Of a stretch of DNA of 64,000 nt, positions 33,476-38,158 are shown in pieces. How positions within the stretch are numbered: position 1 is the first letter of the stretch; the number at the start of each line of letters is the position of its first letter. Location: assembly GCF_000178115.2 (NCBI RefSeq), contig NC_014828.1, positions 1,457,310 through 1,521,309 on the forward strand, given 5' to 3'. The notes beneath the pieces are model-generated. The model did not search any database and was not told where the DNA came from. It worked only from the letters and a program-made list of their open reading frames with translations. This stretch comes from Ethanoligenens harbinense YUAN-3 (GTDB taxonomy: Bacteria; Bacillota; Clostridia; Oscillospirales; Ethanoligenentaceae). A program made the position numbers and the translations under genes.

Positions 33476-34138
33476 CTATGCGCCAAAAATGGATTGCAGC
33501 TGCGCGCGGCTGCCGCTGTCCGCCAGTGCCAGGATGCTGTCACCCTCCAGAATCGTTGTGTCGCCTTTCGGAAGATACGTTTGCTCGTTGCGTGTGACGG
33601 CGATGAGCAAAGCCTGCTTCGGGATGGCGAGGTCTTTGAGTTTTTTACCAACGGAAGCCGCATGCGCATCCACCTCGATCTGAATGATCGAATAGTCCCC
33701 ACGGTTGATTTTCAGCAGCGTGGAGATTGCTTTGAGGTTCATTTCCTCCAAAATCAGATGCGCAAGCAGGTCTGCCTGGTTCACACCCGCGTCCACGCCC
33801 ATCGCGGGCGTGAACAGCCATTTGTTTTTCGGATTATTCACCCGCGCCACCACGCGCGAGACACCGTATTCCATTTTTGCCAGCGTGGAGACCACCAGAT
33901 TGGTTTCATCCCGGCCGGTGACAGCGACCACCACGTCCGCGGAAGCAATGCCGGCGTCTTCCAGCACCTGCGGATGAGAACCGCCGCCCAGCAGGAACGA
34001 TACGTTCGGCAGTTCCTTCCGCAGTCGTTCGACAATCGGTTCCCGTTGTTCGACCACGGTGACGGCGTGATCGTTGGCGGACAGCAGGGTGGCCAGATAG
34101 GAGCCGACCTGGCCACCGCCCACAATGAGGATCTTCAT
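33476..34138 (-). CDS. TrkA-type RCK protein (first)
   Basis: 220 residues. N-terminal RCK/TrkA_N Rossmann domain with GGGQVGSYLATLL (6-18) and an acidic residue after strand 2 (VVEQRE) for NAD(H) or nucleotide binding; the C-terminal half is a TrkA_C (RCK_C) domain (about 140-220). These subunits normally gate KtrB/TrkH K+ channels. No such channel gene is in the window; instead the operon contains a second RCK protein and a P-type ATPase. Confidence 0.88.
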   Translation of the reverse strand: MKILIVGGGQVGSYLATLLSANDHAVTVVEQREPIVERLRKELPNVSFLLGGGSHPQVLEDAGIASADVVVAVTGRDETNLVVSTLAKMEYGVSRVVARVNNPKNKWLFTPAMGVDAGVNQADLLAHLILEEMNLKAISTLLKINRGDYSIIQIEVDAHAASVGKKLKDLAIPKQALLIAVTRNEQTYLPKGDTTILEGDSILALADSGSRAQLQSIFGA

Positions 34139-34154
34139 GGCAATCCCTTCTTTC

Positions 34155-34802
34155 TCAGAGGCCCAGCATGGCTCTCAGCCTGCCGGAGGCGGAAACGAGC
34201 ATAGCGGCGTAAAGCACGTCGCCCGATTCCAGAATGGTGCCGGTGGTGGGAATGAAGGTCCGGCCGCCGCGGCGAATGCCGATGACATGGATTTCACCAA
34301 TAGCCGTCAGTTCCCGCACCATGCGCCCTGTCAGCAGGGGAGGAACATCAATGCGCACCACCTGTACCGAACCGTCGCCAAGATCGCAGATGCTGTCCAG
34401 ATCATGATAGGTGAGCAGCTCCGATGCGCGCTCAATGCCCCACGCGGTGGTGGAGATCGTCTGAATGCCGATACGTCGGTAGGTGTCTGTTTTTCCCATG
34501 TCGTACAGGCGTGCCACCACGTGTGGAACAAGGAAAATATTTTTGGCGATGCGGGCGATGACGATGTTGGCCTCGTCGTTACCCGTGCAGGCGATCAGCG
34601 CATCGGTCTCACCGATCTTTGCCTGCTCCAGCGTACGGCGGTCCATTCCGTCTCCCACGATGCGGGTTCCGGCGAACATTTCCCCAAGCGCCTTAAAACT
34701 GGCGGAGTCGGAATCGATGACTGTGACCTGCCGGCCTTTTTTTATAAGGTCGTCTGCCAGGCCGGTACCAAGCCTGCCCAGACCGATGATGATAATGTTC
34801 AT
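34155..34802 (-). CDS. TrkA-type RCK protein (second)
   Basis: 215 residues with the same two-domain plan: IIGLGRLGTGLADDLIKKG (4-22), VIDSDSASF after strand 2, then an RCK_C domain near the C-terminus. It differs clearly from its neighbour, so the two may form a heteromeric sensor. Its start overlaps the end of the P-type ATPase by 4 bp and it is 16 nt before the next gene, indicating one transcript. Confidence 0.88.
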   Translation of the reverse strand: MNIIIIGLGRLGTGLADDLIKKGRQVTVIDSDSASFKALGEMFAGTRIVGDGMDRRTLEQAKIGETDALIACTGNDEANIVIARIAKNIFLVPHVVARLYDMGKTDTYRRIGIQTISTTAWGIERASELLTYHDLDSICDLGDGSVQVVRIDVPPLLTGRMVRELTAIGEIHVIGIRRGGRTFIPTTGTILESGDVLYAAMLVSASGRLRAMLGL

Positions 34803-37642
34803 CCTGTTTCTCCTGCCTTTCCGGGACGGCGTTTTCGTTCATTACGGCGGGCCAACGCCTTACGTGCCTCCTCAATGATCAGAATAAGCGGCGGCCAGGC
34901 GCACAGAAGCAGGATATCCCAGATATCCAGCGCGGCCATATGAAAGACCTGCTGCATCGGCGGCAGGTAGATCAACGCAAAAATCAGGATAAGTTCCAAC
35001 AAAATACCCCGGTTGATCTGCTTGTTGCTGAACAGCCCGATGCGGAAGACCGACTGCCGTTCCGTGCGGCAGTTGAATACGGCGCCGATCTGGACAAAAA
35101 CGATGGCGGCCAGCGATATAGCAGTGGCCTGGAAATAGACAGGGTCATTGCCGCTGGCAAGCGGCACGGCCGGCCAGCCGTTACGCAGGTTGATAAAGAA
35201 ATAGGAAAACGCCGATGCGGCCGAACCCAGCAGACCATACCACAGAAAAGCGCGCAAGGTCACACTGCGGGTGAGCAGTGGCTCTTTGGGGTCGCGCGGC
35301 GGCTGCGACATAGTAGTTGCTTCCGGGCGCTCGGTGCCAAGTCCCAGCGCAGGCAGCATATCGGTGCCCAGATCAATGGTCAGAAGCTGCATGACGGTGA
35401 GCGGCAGCGGGATGGCGCCGCGTGAGAATAAAAACATGGCCGAAGGGATGGCCTCCTGCATGTTGGCGTTGAAGATATACAGCAGGAATTTGCGGATGTT
35501 GCTGTAAACCGCGCGGCCCTCCTCAATGGCATGTACAATCGAGGCAAAATTGTCGTCGGTGAGGATCATGTCGGCCGCTTCCTTGGCGACATCCGTGCCG
35601 GTAATACCCATGGCCACGCCGATGTCGGCTTTTTTCAGGGCAGGGGAGTCGTTTACGCCGTCGCCCGTCACCGCCACGATCTCACCCATTTCCTGCAGGC
35701 AGGAGACCACGCGAAGCTTTTGCTCGGGCGCCACCCGTGCGAAAATGATCTCATCCTTTAAGTAGGACTTCAACTGTGCATCGCTGAGGTTTGCCAGATC
35801 AATCCCGGATACGACACGCGGATGTTCACCCTGCACGATCCCGATGCGCTTGGCGATGCTTTCAGCCGTCAGTCCGTAGTCGCCGGTGATCATAATGATG
35901 CGGATGCCGGCGCGGCGGCATTGCTCCACGGCGGCGGCCACCTCGGGACGGGGTGGGTCGGCCATGACGGTGAGCCCTATGAACACCATCTCCCGCTCGA
36001 TGGTTTCCGGCGTGTAGGCGCTCAGAGCGACTGGCAGACCATCTTGCGGCCGCAGCAGACGGTATGCCACCCCCAGCACACGCAGTCCGCCGCGGGCATA
36101 CCGGTCGTTTGCCTCCATGATCTGCGTGCGCAGTTCCTCGGTCATGGGTTCTGTTTTGCCGGCGATGCGGATGAAGGTGCTCAGTCGGACGATCTCGTTC
36201 GGCGCGCCTTTTATGTAAGCGATGCGCGACGCGTTTTCCACCGGGGTTTCCAGTTGATGAATGGTGGACATGCGTTTGCGGCGCGATTCGAATGGCAGTT
36301 CCCGCAGGCGCGGCGTGTGTTCGGCCAGCGCGTGTGGGTCAACGCCCGCTTTTTGAGCCGCTACGCCCAGGCAGGCTTCCGTGGGATCGCCCAGCACCGT
36401 ATATCGCCCGAATTCGTTATTTGGCGGCAGCAGGCGGGCGTTGTTGCACAGCGCAGCGGCCGAGAGCAGGAGTCGGAGGTTCGCGTCGTTATCCGCCGTG
36501 ATTGTTCTGCCGTTTTCCCGCACTTCGCCGACGGGCGCATAGCCCGTGCCGGTTACTTCAAATTCACGGCCCGCCAGCCAGAGATGGATGACCGTCATCT
36601 CGTTCTGCGTAAGCGTGCCGGTCTTGTCGGTGCAGATGACAGAGGTGCTTCCCAGAGCCTCAACCGACGCGAGTTTTTTGACCAGTGCGTTGCGGCGGGA
36701 CATCCGCTGTACGGCCATGGCCAGCGAAAGCGTTACAGTGGGGAGCAGACCTTCGGGGATGAATGCGACGATCATGCCCAGTGCAAAAATAAACGACGGA
36801 GCAAGCGGTTCACGTACAAAGAAAAACGCAGCGAGAAAGAAACTGACGCCAAACGAGATGGCAATGACGGAAATCTGTTGGGTCAGGCGGTCGAGCTGCT
36901 TTTGCAGCGGGCTTTTATCCGCCCCCATCTCCTGCGTGAGGTTGGCAATCTTCCCGAATTCTGTCTTCATGCCGGTCTGCGTTACCATGGCCGTACCGTT
37001 GCCTTCCGAAACACTAGTGCCCGCGAAGACCAGGTTTGGGATCTCCGCACGCGCCAGACCGGTTTTCAGAACGGCGTCGGCGGTTTTGCGCACGGGGTTC
37101 GATTCCCCGGTGAGCGTGGATTGATCGGCCTGCAGGTCGCTGCATGTTATAAGCCGGGCATCGGCGGAAATACGGTCGCCCTCTGCCAGCAGCATGACAT
37201 CGCCTGGCACCAGGTCTTCCGCGAGAATCTTTTGTTCCTGTCCGTGGCGGATGATCCGCACATACGACGGGAGCATCTTCCGCAGCGCCTCGGTGGCCTT
37301 GCCTGCACGGAATTCCTGCCAGAAGCTGAATACGCCGTTGATGACATTGACCATCCAGACGGCGACAGCCAACTGCGGCATCCCCGCAAGCAGGGCGATG
37401 ATGCCCGCAATCCAGAGCAGAATGGCCATCAAATGCGTGAAGTTCGCCAAAAACAGCAAAACGGGCGAGCGCTTCTTTTGCGTTTCGATTTGGTTTTTCC
37501 CATATTGTGCCTGCCGCGTCTGCACCTGCTCTGCCGTCAGGCCAGAGGGGGCGCTGTCCAACGCGTTGTATACCTGCCCGGCGGGAAGCTGCTGAATGGG
37601 GCTTGGAGCCGAGCATGAGGAATGGGCTGTATGATCGTCCAT
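34799..37642 (-). CDS. P-type cation ATPase resembling Na+,K+-ATPase (P2C-like)
   Basis: 947 residues from ATG 37642, 10 nt after GGAAGG. Actuator TLTGES, phosphorylation site ICTDKTGTLTQNE (about 335) and hinge VTGDGVNDSPALKKADIGVAMG are intact. M4 reads VAFIPEGLLPTVTL, and M5-M6 reads FNANMQEAIP then TIDLGTDMLPALGLGTE and PPRDPK. By eye this follows the P2C (Na,K-ATPase) pattern (VPEGLLATVT; SNIPE; IDLGTDM) rather than SERCA (NLVTDGLPA, as in the pump at base 1). The Asn and Glu of M5 and both Asp of M6 are kept; the M5 Ser and the M8 Asp of Na,K-ATPase are Ala here. Ion specificity is inferred. It leads an operon with two RCK proteins. Confidence 0.85.
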   Translation of the reverse strand: MDDHTAHSSCSAPSPIQQLPAGQVYNALDSAPSGLTAEQVQTRQAQYGKNQIETQKKRSPVLLFLANFTHLMAILLWIAGIIALLAGMPQLAVAVWMVNVINGVFSFWQEFRAGKATEALRKMLPSYVRIIRHGQEQKILAEDLVPGDVMLLAEGDRISADARLITCSDLQADQSTLTGESNPVRKTADAVLKTGLARAEIPNLVFAGTSVSEGNGTAMVTQTGMKTEFGKIANLTQEMGADKSPLQKQLDRLTQQISVIAISFGVSFFLAAFFFVREPLAPSFIFALGMIVAFIPEGLLPTVTLSLAMAVQRMSRRNALVKKLASVEALGSTSVICTDKTGTLTQNEMTVIHLWLAGREFEVTGTGYAPVGEVRENGRTITADNDANLRLLLSAAALCNNARLLPPNNEFGRYTVLGDPTEACLGVAAQKAGVDPHALAEHTPRLRELPFESRRKRMSTIHQLETPVENASRIAYIKGAPNEIVRLSTFIRIAGKTEPMTEELRTQIMEANDRYARGGLRVLGVAYRLLRPQDGLPVALSAYTPETIEREMVFIGLTVMADPPRPEVAAAVEQCRRAGIRIIMITGDYGLTAESIAKRIGIVQGEHPRVVSGIDLANLSDAQLKSYLKDEIIFARVAPEQKLRVVSCLQEMGEIVAVTGDGVNDSPALKKADIGVAMGITGTDVAKEAADMILTDDNFASIVHAIEEGRAVYSNIRKFLLYIFNANMQEAIPSAMFLFSRGAIPLPLTVMQLLTIDLGTDMLPALGLGTERPEATTMSQPPRDPKEPLLTRSVTLRAFLWYGLLGSAASAFSYFFINLRNGWPAVPLASGNDPVYFQATAISLAAIVFVQIGAVFNCRTERQSVFRIGLFSNKQINRGILLELILIFALIYLPPMQQVFHMAALDIWDILLLCAWPPLILIIEEARKALARRNERKRRPGKAGETG

Positions 37643-37688
37643 GGTGTTCAAACCTTCCATGTCAGATATGCGTAATCTGTCTGGCCAC

Positions 37689-37717
37689 ATTATACCATTC
37701 TTCCCGATGATACACAA
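37689..37717 (-). promoter_or_regulatory. promoter of the P2C-ATPase/RCK operon
   Basis: Minus strand TTGTGT (37717-37712), 17-bp spacer, TATAAT (37694-37689), 46 bp before the start codon. Confidence 0.75.
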
Positions 37718-37769
37718 TAATGCGCGGCAGGCGTGCGATTCCGGCGAAGCGGGCAAGGCGTGCGGTATC

Positions 37770-37803
37770 AAAAAACGGAGACGCCGTGTGGCGCCTCCGT
37801 TTT
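37770..37803 (-). terminator. terminator of rnpB
   Basis: Minus-strand AACGGAGGCGC pairs with GCGTCTCCGTT (one mismatch) and is followed by six T, directly behind the rnpB 3' end. Confidence 0.85.
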
Positions 37804-38158
37804 ACTGGTGCGAGTAAGTCTGTAAGCCGAGTTCTGTTTTTGACAGCCATCTATCTTGGCCGTGCGTTGCCACACGGCTCACGCCACCATCACGGGGATA
37901 ACGCCGGGCTAGCGTATAACTCCCCTACGGGTGTTGCTCCGGATAGGGTTTGCAGGGCCGCGCAGTCTCCTGCGCGCCGGTGAGCTCTTACCTCGCCTTT
38001 CCACCCTTGCCGGGCCGAAACCCGGCGGTATATCTCTGTTGCACTGTCCCTGGAGTCGCCTCCGGCGGGCGTTGCCCGCTATCCTGCCCTGTGGAGCTCG
38101 GACTTTCCTCAGATGCGACCTTTCGGCGCTGCACCCGCGGCTGTCTGGCTTGCTCGCG
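37803..38158 (-). ncRNA. rnpB: RNase P RNA
   Basis: On the minus strand the conserved 5' region GAGGAAAGTCCGAGCTCCAC, then ACAGGGCAGG, AGAGATATACCGCC, GGTAAGAGCTCACC and the 3' segment GAACTCGGCTTACAG are all present. P1 forms between GCGAGCAAG at the 5' end and CTTACTCGC at the 3' end. Length about 356 nt. Consensus promoter and terminator flank it. Confidence 0.96.

Follow-up and report, generated by a model that had tools for sequence, protein, structure and literature searches.

A recurrent three-gene operon suggests that a Na,K-ATPase-like bacterial pump is switched by a channel-type RCK regulator

The pump operon and its surroundings

On the minus strand of the window, by which we mean the whole stretch of 64,000 nucleotides from Ethanoligenens harbinense YUAN-3 that was analysed (NC_014828.1, positions 1,457,310 to 1,521,309), three genes are transcribed in the order ATPase, RCK1, RCK2, according to the open reading frames of the window. 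These genes and the sites discussed below are as follows, with ATPase residues given in a 962-residue numbering that is counted from position 37687.

34799..37642, minus strand: P2C-like P-type ATPase (the pump), 947 aa from a probable ATG at 37642; assigned by Pfam and tree
34155..34802, minus strand: RCK1, a full RCK protein of 215 aa with TrkA_N and TrkA_C; assigned by Pfam
33476..34138, minus strand: RCK2, a full RCK protein of 220 aa with TrkA_N and TrkA_C; assigned by Pfam, closest solved relative TM1088B
37689..37717, minus strand: candidate operon promoter TTGTGT-17-TATAAT, found by eye in the interval separating rnpB from the ATPase
37653..37658, minus strand: candidate ribosome-binding site GGAAGG, found by eye 10 nt 5' of the ATG at 37642
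36752..36754, minus strand: codon of the M4 Glu, E312, equivalent by alignment to Na,K-ATPase E327
36626..36628, minus strand: codon of the phosphorylated Asp of DKTGT, D354, invariant in alignments
35360..35374, minus strand: codons of the M6 DLGTD, D772-D776, holding the equivalents of Na,K-ATPase D804 and D808

The initial annotation had described two RCK proteins following the pump with a 4-bp overlap and a 16-nt spacing, and the coordinates agree: the ATPase stop shares 34799-34802 with the RCK1 ATG, and the spacer between RCK1 and RCK2 occupies 34139-34154. Its description of an operon without a K+ channel also holds, since the operon is tight and contains no channel gene. The ATPase carries the Pfam domains E1-E2_ATPase, Cation_ATPase_C, Cation_ATPase_N, Cation_ATPase and Hydrolase; with its DKTGT-containing core and its N and C Cation_ATPase domains, it is a P-type ATPase of the P2 subfamily. 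The Asp of DKTGT is the phosphorylation site of P-type ATPases, and the motif is invariant in the ATPase alignments. Both TrkA_N and TrkA_C score above the Pfam cut-off in RCK1 and in RCK2.

The ATPase frame is open to 37771, and its longest version is 34799-37771(-) with a TTG start; translation probably begins at the ATG at 37642 (947 aa) and not at the start of this long frame. By eye, a TATAAT stands at 37694-37689 with a weak TTGTGT 17 nt upstream, a pair that is absent from the output of a promoter scan of the upstream region. Directly upstream of the operon and on the same strand lies rnpB (RNase P class A RNA, 278 bits, 37807-38156(-)), which has a perfect TTGACA-17-TATAAT at 38193-38165, and a hairpin-like stretch with a run of T follows rnpB before the pump ATG. 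A riboswitch and RNA search of the window operon returned rnpB and one sub-threshold chance match and nothing else, no KdpE box was seen by eye upstream of the window pump, and no KdpDE genes adjoin the window locus. The same genome encodes four more P2 ATPases (at C1 2326705, 1457529, 761044 and 857363), and the short stretches around those four contain no RCK match.

Class and ion pocket of the pump

The pump was placed in a tree of 108 ATPases, which 83 of the 88 distinct loci with both RCK genes entered; the other five (L066, L071, L124, L125 and L139, in which the frame began before an upstream stop) were left out of both the tree and the residue counts. All 83 RCK-linked pumps belong to one clade of 88 tips (support 0.999), the other five tips being L050, whose contig ends inside RCK1, and the RCK-less L119, L136, L142 and L192. 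The pig Na,K-ATPase is the sister of this clade (support 0.826, at a node where the only animal sequence is incomplete and long-branched), and a separate clade (0.998) holds LMCA1, 14 Ca2+-type pumps, L011 from the window's own genome, and the second pump of L046. The phylogeny that had been proposed as a check thus puts the pump beside Na,K-ATPase, apart from the Ca2+ pumps. Of 35 diagnostic columns, Na,K-ATPase shares 19 with the RCK clade and 5 with the Ca2+ clade. A second P2 ATPase, of 36-37 percent identity, follows the operon at L046:1355-4033(-) and at L047:6873-8576(+), the former being the copy that groups with Ca2+-type pumps.

The NCBIfam scores agree with the tree in direction. 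On the window pump, the IIC profile TIGR01106 scores 615 bits, under its cut-off of 946, while the PMR1 profile, nominally the best NCBIfam match, scores 633 bits (cut-off 798), the SERCA profile 560 bits (cut-off 703), and the IID efflux profile 439 bits. The two Ca2+-type sisters that were tested pass the PMR1 and SERCA cut-offs (814 and 735 bits for one, 818 and 718 bits for the other) and score 500 and 513 bits on IIC. Six RCK-linked pumps, the window pump among them, span 515-668 bits on IIC and 633-685 bits on PMR1, under every such cut-off, with L191 the least IIC-like of those tested (515).

The motifs PEGLLPTVT, NANMQE, IDLGTDM and PPRDPK, in which a P2C pattern had been recognized, are all present in the window pump, and the reported retention of the M5 Asn/Glu and the M6 Asp pair is borne out by alignment: every equivalent of K+/Na+ sites I and II is kept (E327, N776, E779, D804 and D808). 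Across the 83 RCK-linked pumps, the equivalent is kept in 83 for E327, 79 for N776, 82 for E779, 83 for D804 and 79 for D808, where the remaining 4/83 have Glu; the M8 Gln (Q923) is kept in 83/83. The initial annotation had further read Ala in place of the M5 Ser and of the M8 Asp linked to the third Na+ site, and this is correct for the window copy; the M5 Ala (S775 position) is nevertheless unique to it, with Ser in 75/83 and His in 7, whereas the M8 D926 position is Asp in 0/83. At the M6 D804 position, Asp in 83/83 RCK-linked pumps contrasts with Asn in 14/14 sisters and in LMCA1. This M6 Asn of Ca2+ pumps we take to be N796 of SERCA. In the deep-branching RCK-linked pumps L187-L191, L193 and L194, His replaces the M5 Ser, and in L187 and L189 Leu also replaces N776 and Glu replaces D808; judged from these residues, ion specificity may have changed in the deep-branching pumps.

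In a sequence comparison with the PDB, Na,K-ATPase alpha3 scores highest (532 bits), followed by LMCA1 (517), SPCA1 (491) and SERCA (475). Foldseek with a model of the ATPase placed Na,K-ATPase E1.3Na+ at rank 1 and SERCA at rank 4, ranks that are taken as supporting only because the model has a pLDDT of 75.7 and a pTM of 0.62. A Ca2+ pump identity was rejected on the pocket residues, the profile cut-offs and the tree. By these sequence comparisons the pump is P2C-like, and it is not filed as P2C because it scores under the TIGR01106 cut-off and lacks the third-Na+ Asp.

Linkage to the RCK pair, K+ transporters and KdpDE

A collection of species genomes was scanned with an alignment of six ATPases, and the best 80 loci of a longer list, retrieved by the ATPase alone, were compared. 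In 77 of these best 80 loci, the ATPase is followed on its own strand by RCK1 and then RCK2 (one RCK match is short or split in L077, L115, L121, L125 and L130), and because the gene order recurs in this way, chance adjacency is excluded. The loci cover Clostridia, Coriobacteriia, Erysipelotrichia, Bacilli and one Actinomycetes assembly; three of them (L134, L135 and L140, matching contigs L047, L049 and L048) are duplicates and were dropped. The pair is missing in Neobacillus paridis (L119), Lactobacillus selangorensis (L136, where the contig stops about 1 kb past the ATPase) and Loigolactobacillus backii (L142). Five ATPase-RCK1 gaps of 2.6-3 kb (L066, L071, L124, L125 and L139) are an artefact of frame extraction. 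In a draw of 398 genomes from the phylum, the ATPase was found at E<=1e-200 in 25, the window's own among them; of the other 24 ATPases, the 10 most similar (45-66 percent) have the RCK pair in 9 cases, and the 14 less similar (39-42 percent, the Ca2+-type sisters) have it next door in none. Among the latter, L179 offers just 356 downstream bases for this check, and in L184 an RCK2 match that looks unrelated (29 percent) lies some 6 kb away from the ATPase. The suggested survey for a conserved ATPase-RCK-RCK arrangement therefore gave 77/80 best loci versus 0/14 sisters. Clustering of the neighbours of the best 80 loci, which is rough in that a simple ORF caller misses genes in GC-rich loci, found no further gene family common to more than 20 loci; the largest other families are ABC ATPases and sensor kinases.

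With four RCK-less members inside the clade, a clade pump can evidently exist without RCK. The conserved R428 is altered in L119, L136 and L142, possibly through loss of an RCK contact or by coincidence. Changed columns number 12, 24 and 14 in three RCK-less members versus 5-16 in eight RCK-linked ones, and it is suggestive only that the columns changed in RCK-less pumps mark RCK contacts. Mirror-tree correlations of 0.87-0.92 (79 loci) have no vertical-inheritance baseline and are hence uninformative.

Judged by their motifs, RCK1 and RCK2 are of the full RCK (TrkA/KtrA) type with intact nucleotide-binding motifs: GxGxxG is kept in 85/87 RCK1 and 83/85 RCK2 sequences, and the acidic ribose-binding residue that closes the second strand is Asp in 81/87 RCK1 and Glu/Asp in 83/85 RCK2. 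The best solved relative of RCK2 is TM1088B (118.8 bits), and those of RCK1 are VpTrkA (72.7 bits) and TM1088A (68.8 bits). The c-di-AMP signature of RCK_C domains, (I/L)(I/L)X2DX1RX5N(I/L)(I/L), as quoted in the accessible text of PMC10117811, was found in 0/87 RCK1 and 0/85 RCK2, and 16 of the best 80 loci yielded no c-di-AMP riboswitch, the matches being one tRNA, one ZTP and one glycine riboswitch. Control by c-di-AMP was rejected on the absence of this signature and of a c-di-AMP riboswitch in the window operon and the 16 loci; since the nucleotide motifs are kept and the signature is absent, nucleotide sensing is the likely input. Stand-alone tandems that resemble RCK1-RCK2 occur in other genomes of the order (L052, L054, L059, L060, L063 and L064); tblastn showed no related pump there, and their ORF lists contain no evident channel.

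The initial annotation had pointed to a TrkH/KtrB elsewhere in the genome that might need exactly these RCK proteins. In the window's own genome, a single contig of 3,008,576 bases rated 100 percent complete, TrkH/KtrB gave 0 matches in a search whose control was positive in 11/14 genomes, and of four TrkA_N matches only RCK1 and RCK2 exceed the cut-off. The RCK pair thus has no such partner to serve, and its assignment as a Trk/Ktr subunit in this genome was rejected. Kup also gave 0 matches. The one kdpA match (L015:6274-7530(-), or C1 1893273-1894529) lacks the first 139 model positions, the frames upstream of it resemble conjugative-element proteins by eye, and no N-terminal KdpA hallmark motif was found in the 13-kb stretch; the Kdp system of this genome was probably broken by insertion. 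A 380-aa protein near kdpA (L015:2324-3466(+)) has KdpD and Usp domains and no kinase domain. A KimA homologue is encoded at L195:880-2781(-), an APC protein with 486 bits to 6s3k and the sole PF13520 match. The cell therefore probably has another K+ importer besides the pump, and the proposal that the pump is the only one (with Kdp broken and Kup and TrkH absent) was dropped.

Of the 80 genomes, a panel of 50, chosen to include isolates and diverse assemblies, has TrkH/KtrB in 31/50 and lacks it in 19/50, an absence that is weaker for the several TrkH-less entries that are metagenome assemblies; in 17 of these 19 the pump is accompanied by the RCK pair. Four Coriobacteriia (G697, G701, G703 and G723) have no TrkA_N matches at E<=0.001 other than the pair. 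The remaining TrkH-less, pair-bearing genomes have more such matches, which include long frames of 689-763 aa in G699, G702, G704 and G709 and, in G725, extra frames of RCK size. KdpA was found in 14/50 and Kup in 19/50 panel genomes; the survey for KimA covered the window's own genome.

A KdpD-type kinase adjoins the operon in 21 of the best 80 loci, and so does a KdpE-type regulator except at L126. These 21 are 13 Coriobacteriia loci (L088 being assigned there by similarity) together with L116, L120, L124, L125, L126, L128, L129 and L131, and with 13/21 from Coriobacteriia they are not independent. Of six kinases examined with Pfam, L128 and L126 have KdpD and DUF4118, and L081, L090, L101 and L116 have DUF4118 and kinase domains; the other kinases were counted by similarity to these six, and at L129 the contig ends inside the kinase. 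Kinase matches at L068 and L079 (105 and 75 bits), weak and of other kinds, were left out of the 21. The arrangements vary (upstream on the same strand, divergent, or downstream and convergent), which implies repeated origin or repeated rearrangement of the association. No KdpDE was found next to the 14 sister loci (0/14, L177 having just 542 upstream bases) or close by in 10 further clade loci (0/10, the upstream flanks of L185 and L191 being short), of which L186 has a weak 89-bit kinase match 2-3 kb from the pump. KdpA is missing from 12/14 KdpDE-adjacent panel genomes versus 24/36 others (Fisher p = 0.29), and the notion of a KdpDE left beside the pump by a lost kdpFABC was weakened, KdpA absence being common anyway.

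Upstream of the pump, the direct repeat TTWAY-N6-TTWAY (11-bp period) occurs in 15/20 KdpDE-adjacent loci (shuffle control: mean 0.19, maximum 2 in 200 rounds), with a pattern that was refined after viewing the same sites and with the 15 sites amounting to about seven distinct sequences. It occurs elsewhere in 4/54 other clade loci (shuffle mean 2.3) and 1/14 sisters, and on the reverse strand in 1/20 KdpDE-adjacent and 13/54 other clade loci; L129, three duplicate loci and loci with fewer than 300 upstream bases were left out of the count. The starting point was TTTATA-N5-TTTATA, which we take to be the KdpE box and for which p was low in some KdpDE-adjacent loci but not in the rest.

Proposed function and comparison with known systems

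RCK proteins are switches of K+ channels and some antiporters, and to our knowledge no P-type ATPase is RCK-gated. We lean towards the view that the three genes form one K+-related machine, in which a Na,K-ATPase-like (P2C-like) pump would be combined with a split, two-subunit gating ring of the TrkA type. In the mechanism that we infer, from ion and direction to RCK-pump contact, ring assembly, nucleotide control and low-K+ induction, RCK1 and RCK2 would assemble into a ring that docks on the pump, and nucleotide binding by this ring would gate it. The pump would carry K+ inward, probably exchanging it for outward Na+, with a charge imbalance that, for want of the third-Na+ Asp, would be lower than that of the animal Na,K-ATPase, and low K+ would induce it via KdpDE in those lineages in which KdpDE is adjacent. 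It is quite probable that RCK1 and RCK2 act on the pump; K+ import with Na+ export stands at about even, and Na+ alone or H+ is a possible transported ion. The full proposal, a first primary pump gated by an RCK ring, namely a Na,K-type K+ importer whose turnover would be set by nucleotides through an RCK1/RCK2 hetero-octamer and whose transcription would be driven by KdpDE in several lineages, is tentative and falls a little short of an even chance.

Other readings of the operon must be weighed against this machine. It is unlikely, with perhaps the largest share among the alternatives, that the RCK pair is co-transcribed with the pump and gates a K+ transporter elsewhere (TrkH/KtrB, or KimA in this genome), pump and RCK proteins sharing a K+ regulon only. 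Such an arrangement would fit the TrkH/KtrB of 31/50 panel genomes, the KimA homologue of the window's own genome, the stand-alone RCK pairs of other genomes of the order, whose listed neighbourhood has neither pump nor channel, and a mycobacterial Trk system with two TrkA proteins, described in the abstract of PMC13163235. The own genome and 17/50 panel genomes, however, have the pair without TrkH/KtrB, and two lactobacilli whose pump is RCK-less show nothing stronger elsewhere than weak TrkA_N matches (about 27 bits, with a cut-off of 23.8), as if the RCK pair and the linkage had been lost together.

Somewhat less likely again is an ENA-like efflux pump for Na+ (or Na+/K+) under salt stress, with the RCK proteins as a safety switch and with no K+ import. 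A P2C-like pocket would also suit Na+ extrusion, and the IID efflux profile does score 439 bits on the window pump, but IIC lies far above it at 615 bits, the K+-site residues are kept, and KdpDE beside 21/80 best loci points to K+ limitation. A PMR1/SERCA-type Ca2+ pump with incidental RCK neighbours could claim the nominally best NCBIfam profile (PMR1, 633 versus 615 bits for IIC) and the closeness of SERCA structures behind Na,K-ATPase in the ranking; with scores under the PMR1 and SERCA cut-offs that the two tested sisters pass, with the M6 Asn replaced by Asp in all 83 pumps analysed, and with the clade placed apart from Ca2+ pumps in the tree, it is very improbable.

Both parts of the operon are of known kinds, and the pairing of RCK proteins with a P2 ATPase appears to be new. 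The pairing had been put forward as one not known to be characterised, and among the open-access papers covered, by title, opening of the abstract or passages of text, there was no RCK/TrkA-P2 ATPase pairing; subscription papers fell mostly outside this search, and absence is thus unproven. The accessible text of PMC10117811, PMC13379511, PMC10219603 and PMC4380455 yielded no such pairing, and the main text of PMC10654040, as far as accessible, contains no mention of 'RCK'. The recurrence of the three-gene set in many bacteria suggests that here a channel-type regulator switches an ion pump. Such a conserved operon would bring primary pumps under RCK control, would supply a bacterial pump of the Na,K-ATPase type with a regulator and a physiological role, and would provide a prokaryotic model for the control of this pump class without a beta subunit. 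If the pump is a K+ importer, it would represent a K+ system missed by searches for TrkH, Kup and Kdp in, for example, Collinsella, Olsenella, Caproiciproducens and Lacrimispora relatives.

Among known systems, KdpFABC with KdpDE is likewise a K+-linked P-type ATPase, and KdpD/KdpE-type genes stand beside 21/80 best loci; unlike the window pump, which is of the P2 kind, Kdp combines a channel-like KdpA with a P1A ATPase, and we know of no RCK in it. KefC is an RCK-regulated antiporter and so resembles the proposed machine in that RCK controls a transporter other than a channel, but it is a secondary antiporter and is not ATP-driven. The same likeness and the same difference apply to KhtTU (accessible text of PMC10117811), and the c-di-AMP RCK_C signature quoted there is absent from RCK1 and RCK2 (0/87 and 0/85). 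The alpha subunits of Na,K-ATPase and H,K-ATPase share with the pump the fold, the catalytic motifs, the M4 PEGLL, the M5 N/E, the M6 DLGTD and the M8 Gln, and Na,K-ATPase is its best PDB match in sequence and fold and its sister in the tree, at 30-34 percent identity to the window pump in structural alignments; the RCK-linked pumps differ in lacking the third-Na+ Asp (83/83) and in having two RCK genes in the operon. The beta-assembly motif SYG[QE] occurs in 0/108 P2 ATPases, in a scan that had no positive control. Prokaryotic Na,K-ATPase-like alpha sequences without the beta-subunit motif have already been published (PMC9609216), in a paper whose main text, as far as accessible, lacks the term 'TrkA' and gave no RCK association. 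For the RCK pair, the closest counterpart is TM1088A/TM1088B of Thermotoga maritima, described in the accessible text of PMC4380455 as a two-subunit TrkA that forms a four-plus-four ring. There too, two adjacent RCK genes are of unequal sequence; TM1088A, unlike RCK1, has no TrkA_C domain, and the partner of TM1088 is TrkH (TM1089; PMC4380455), whereas the neighbour of RCK1 and RCK2 is a P-type ATPase.
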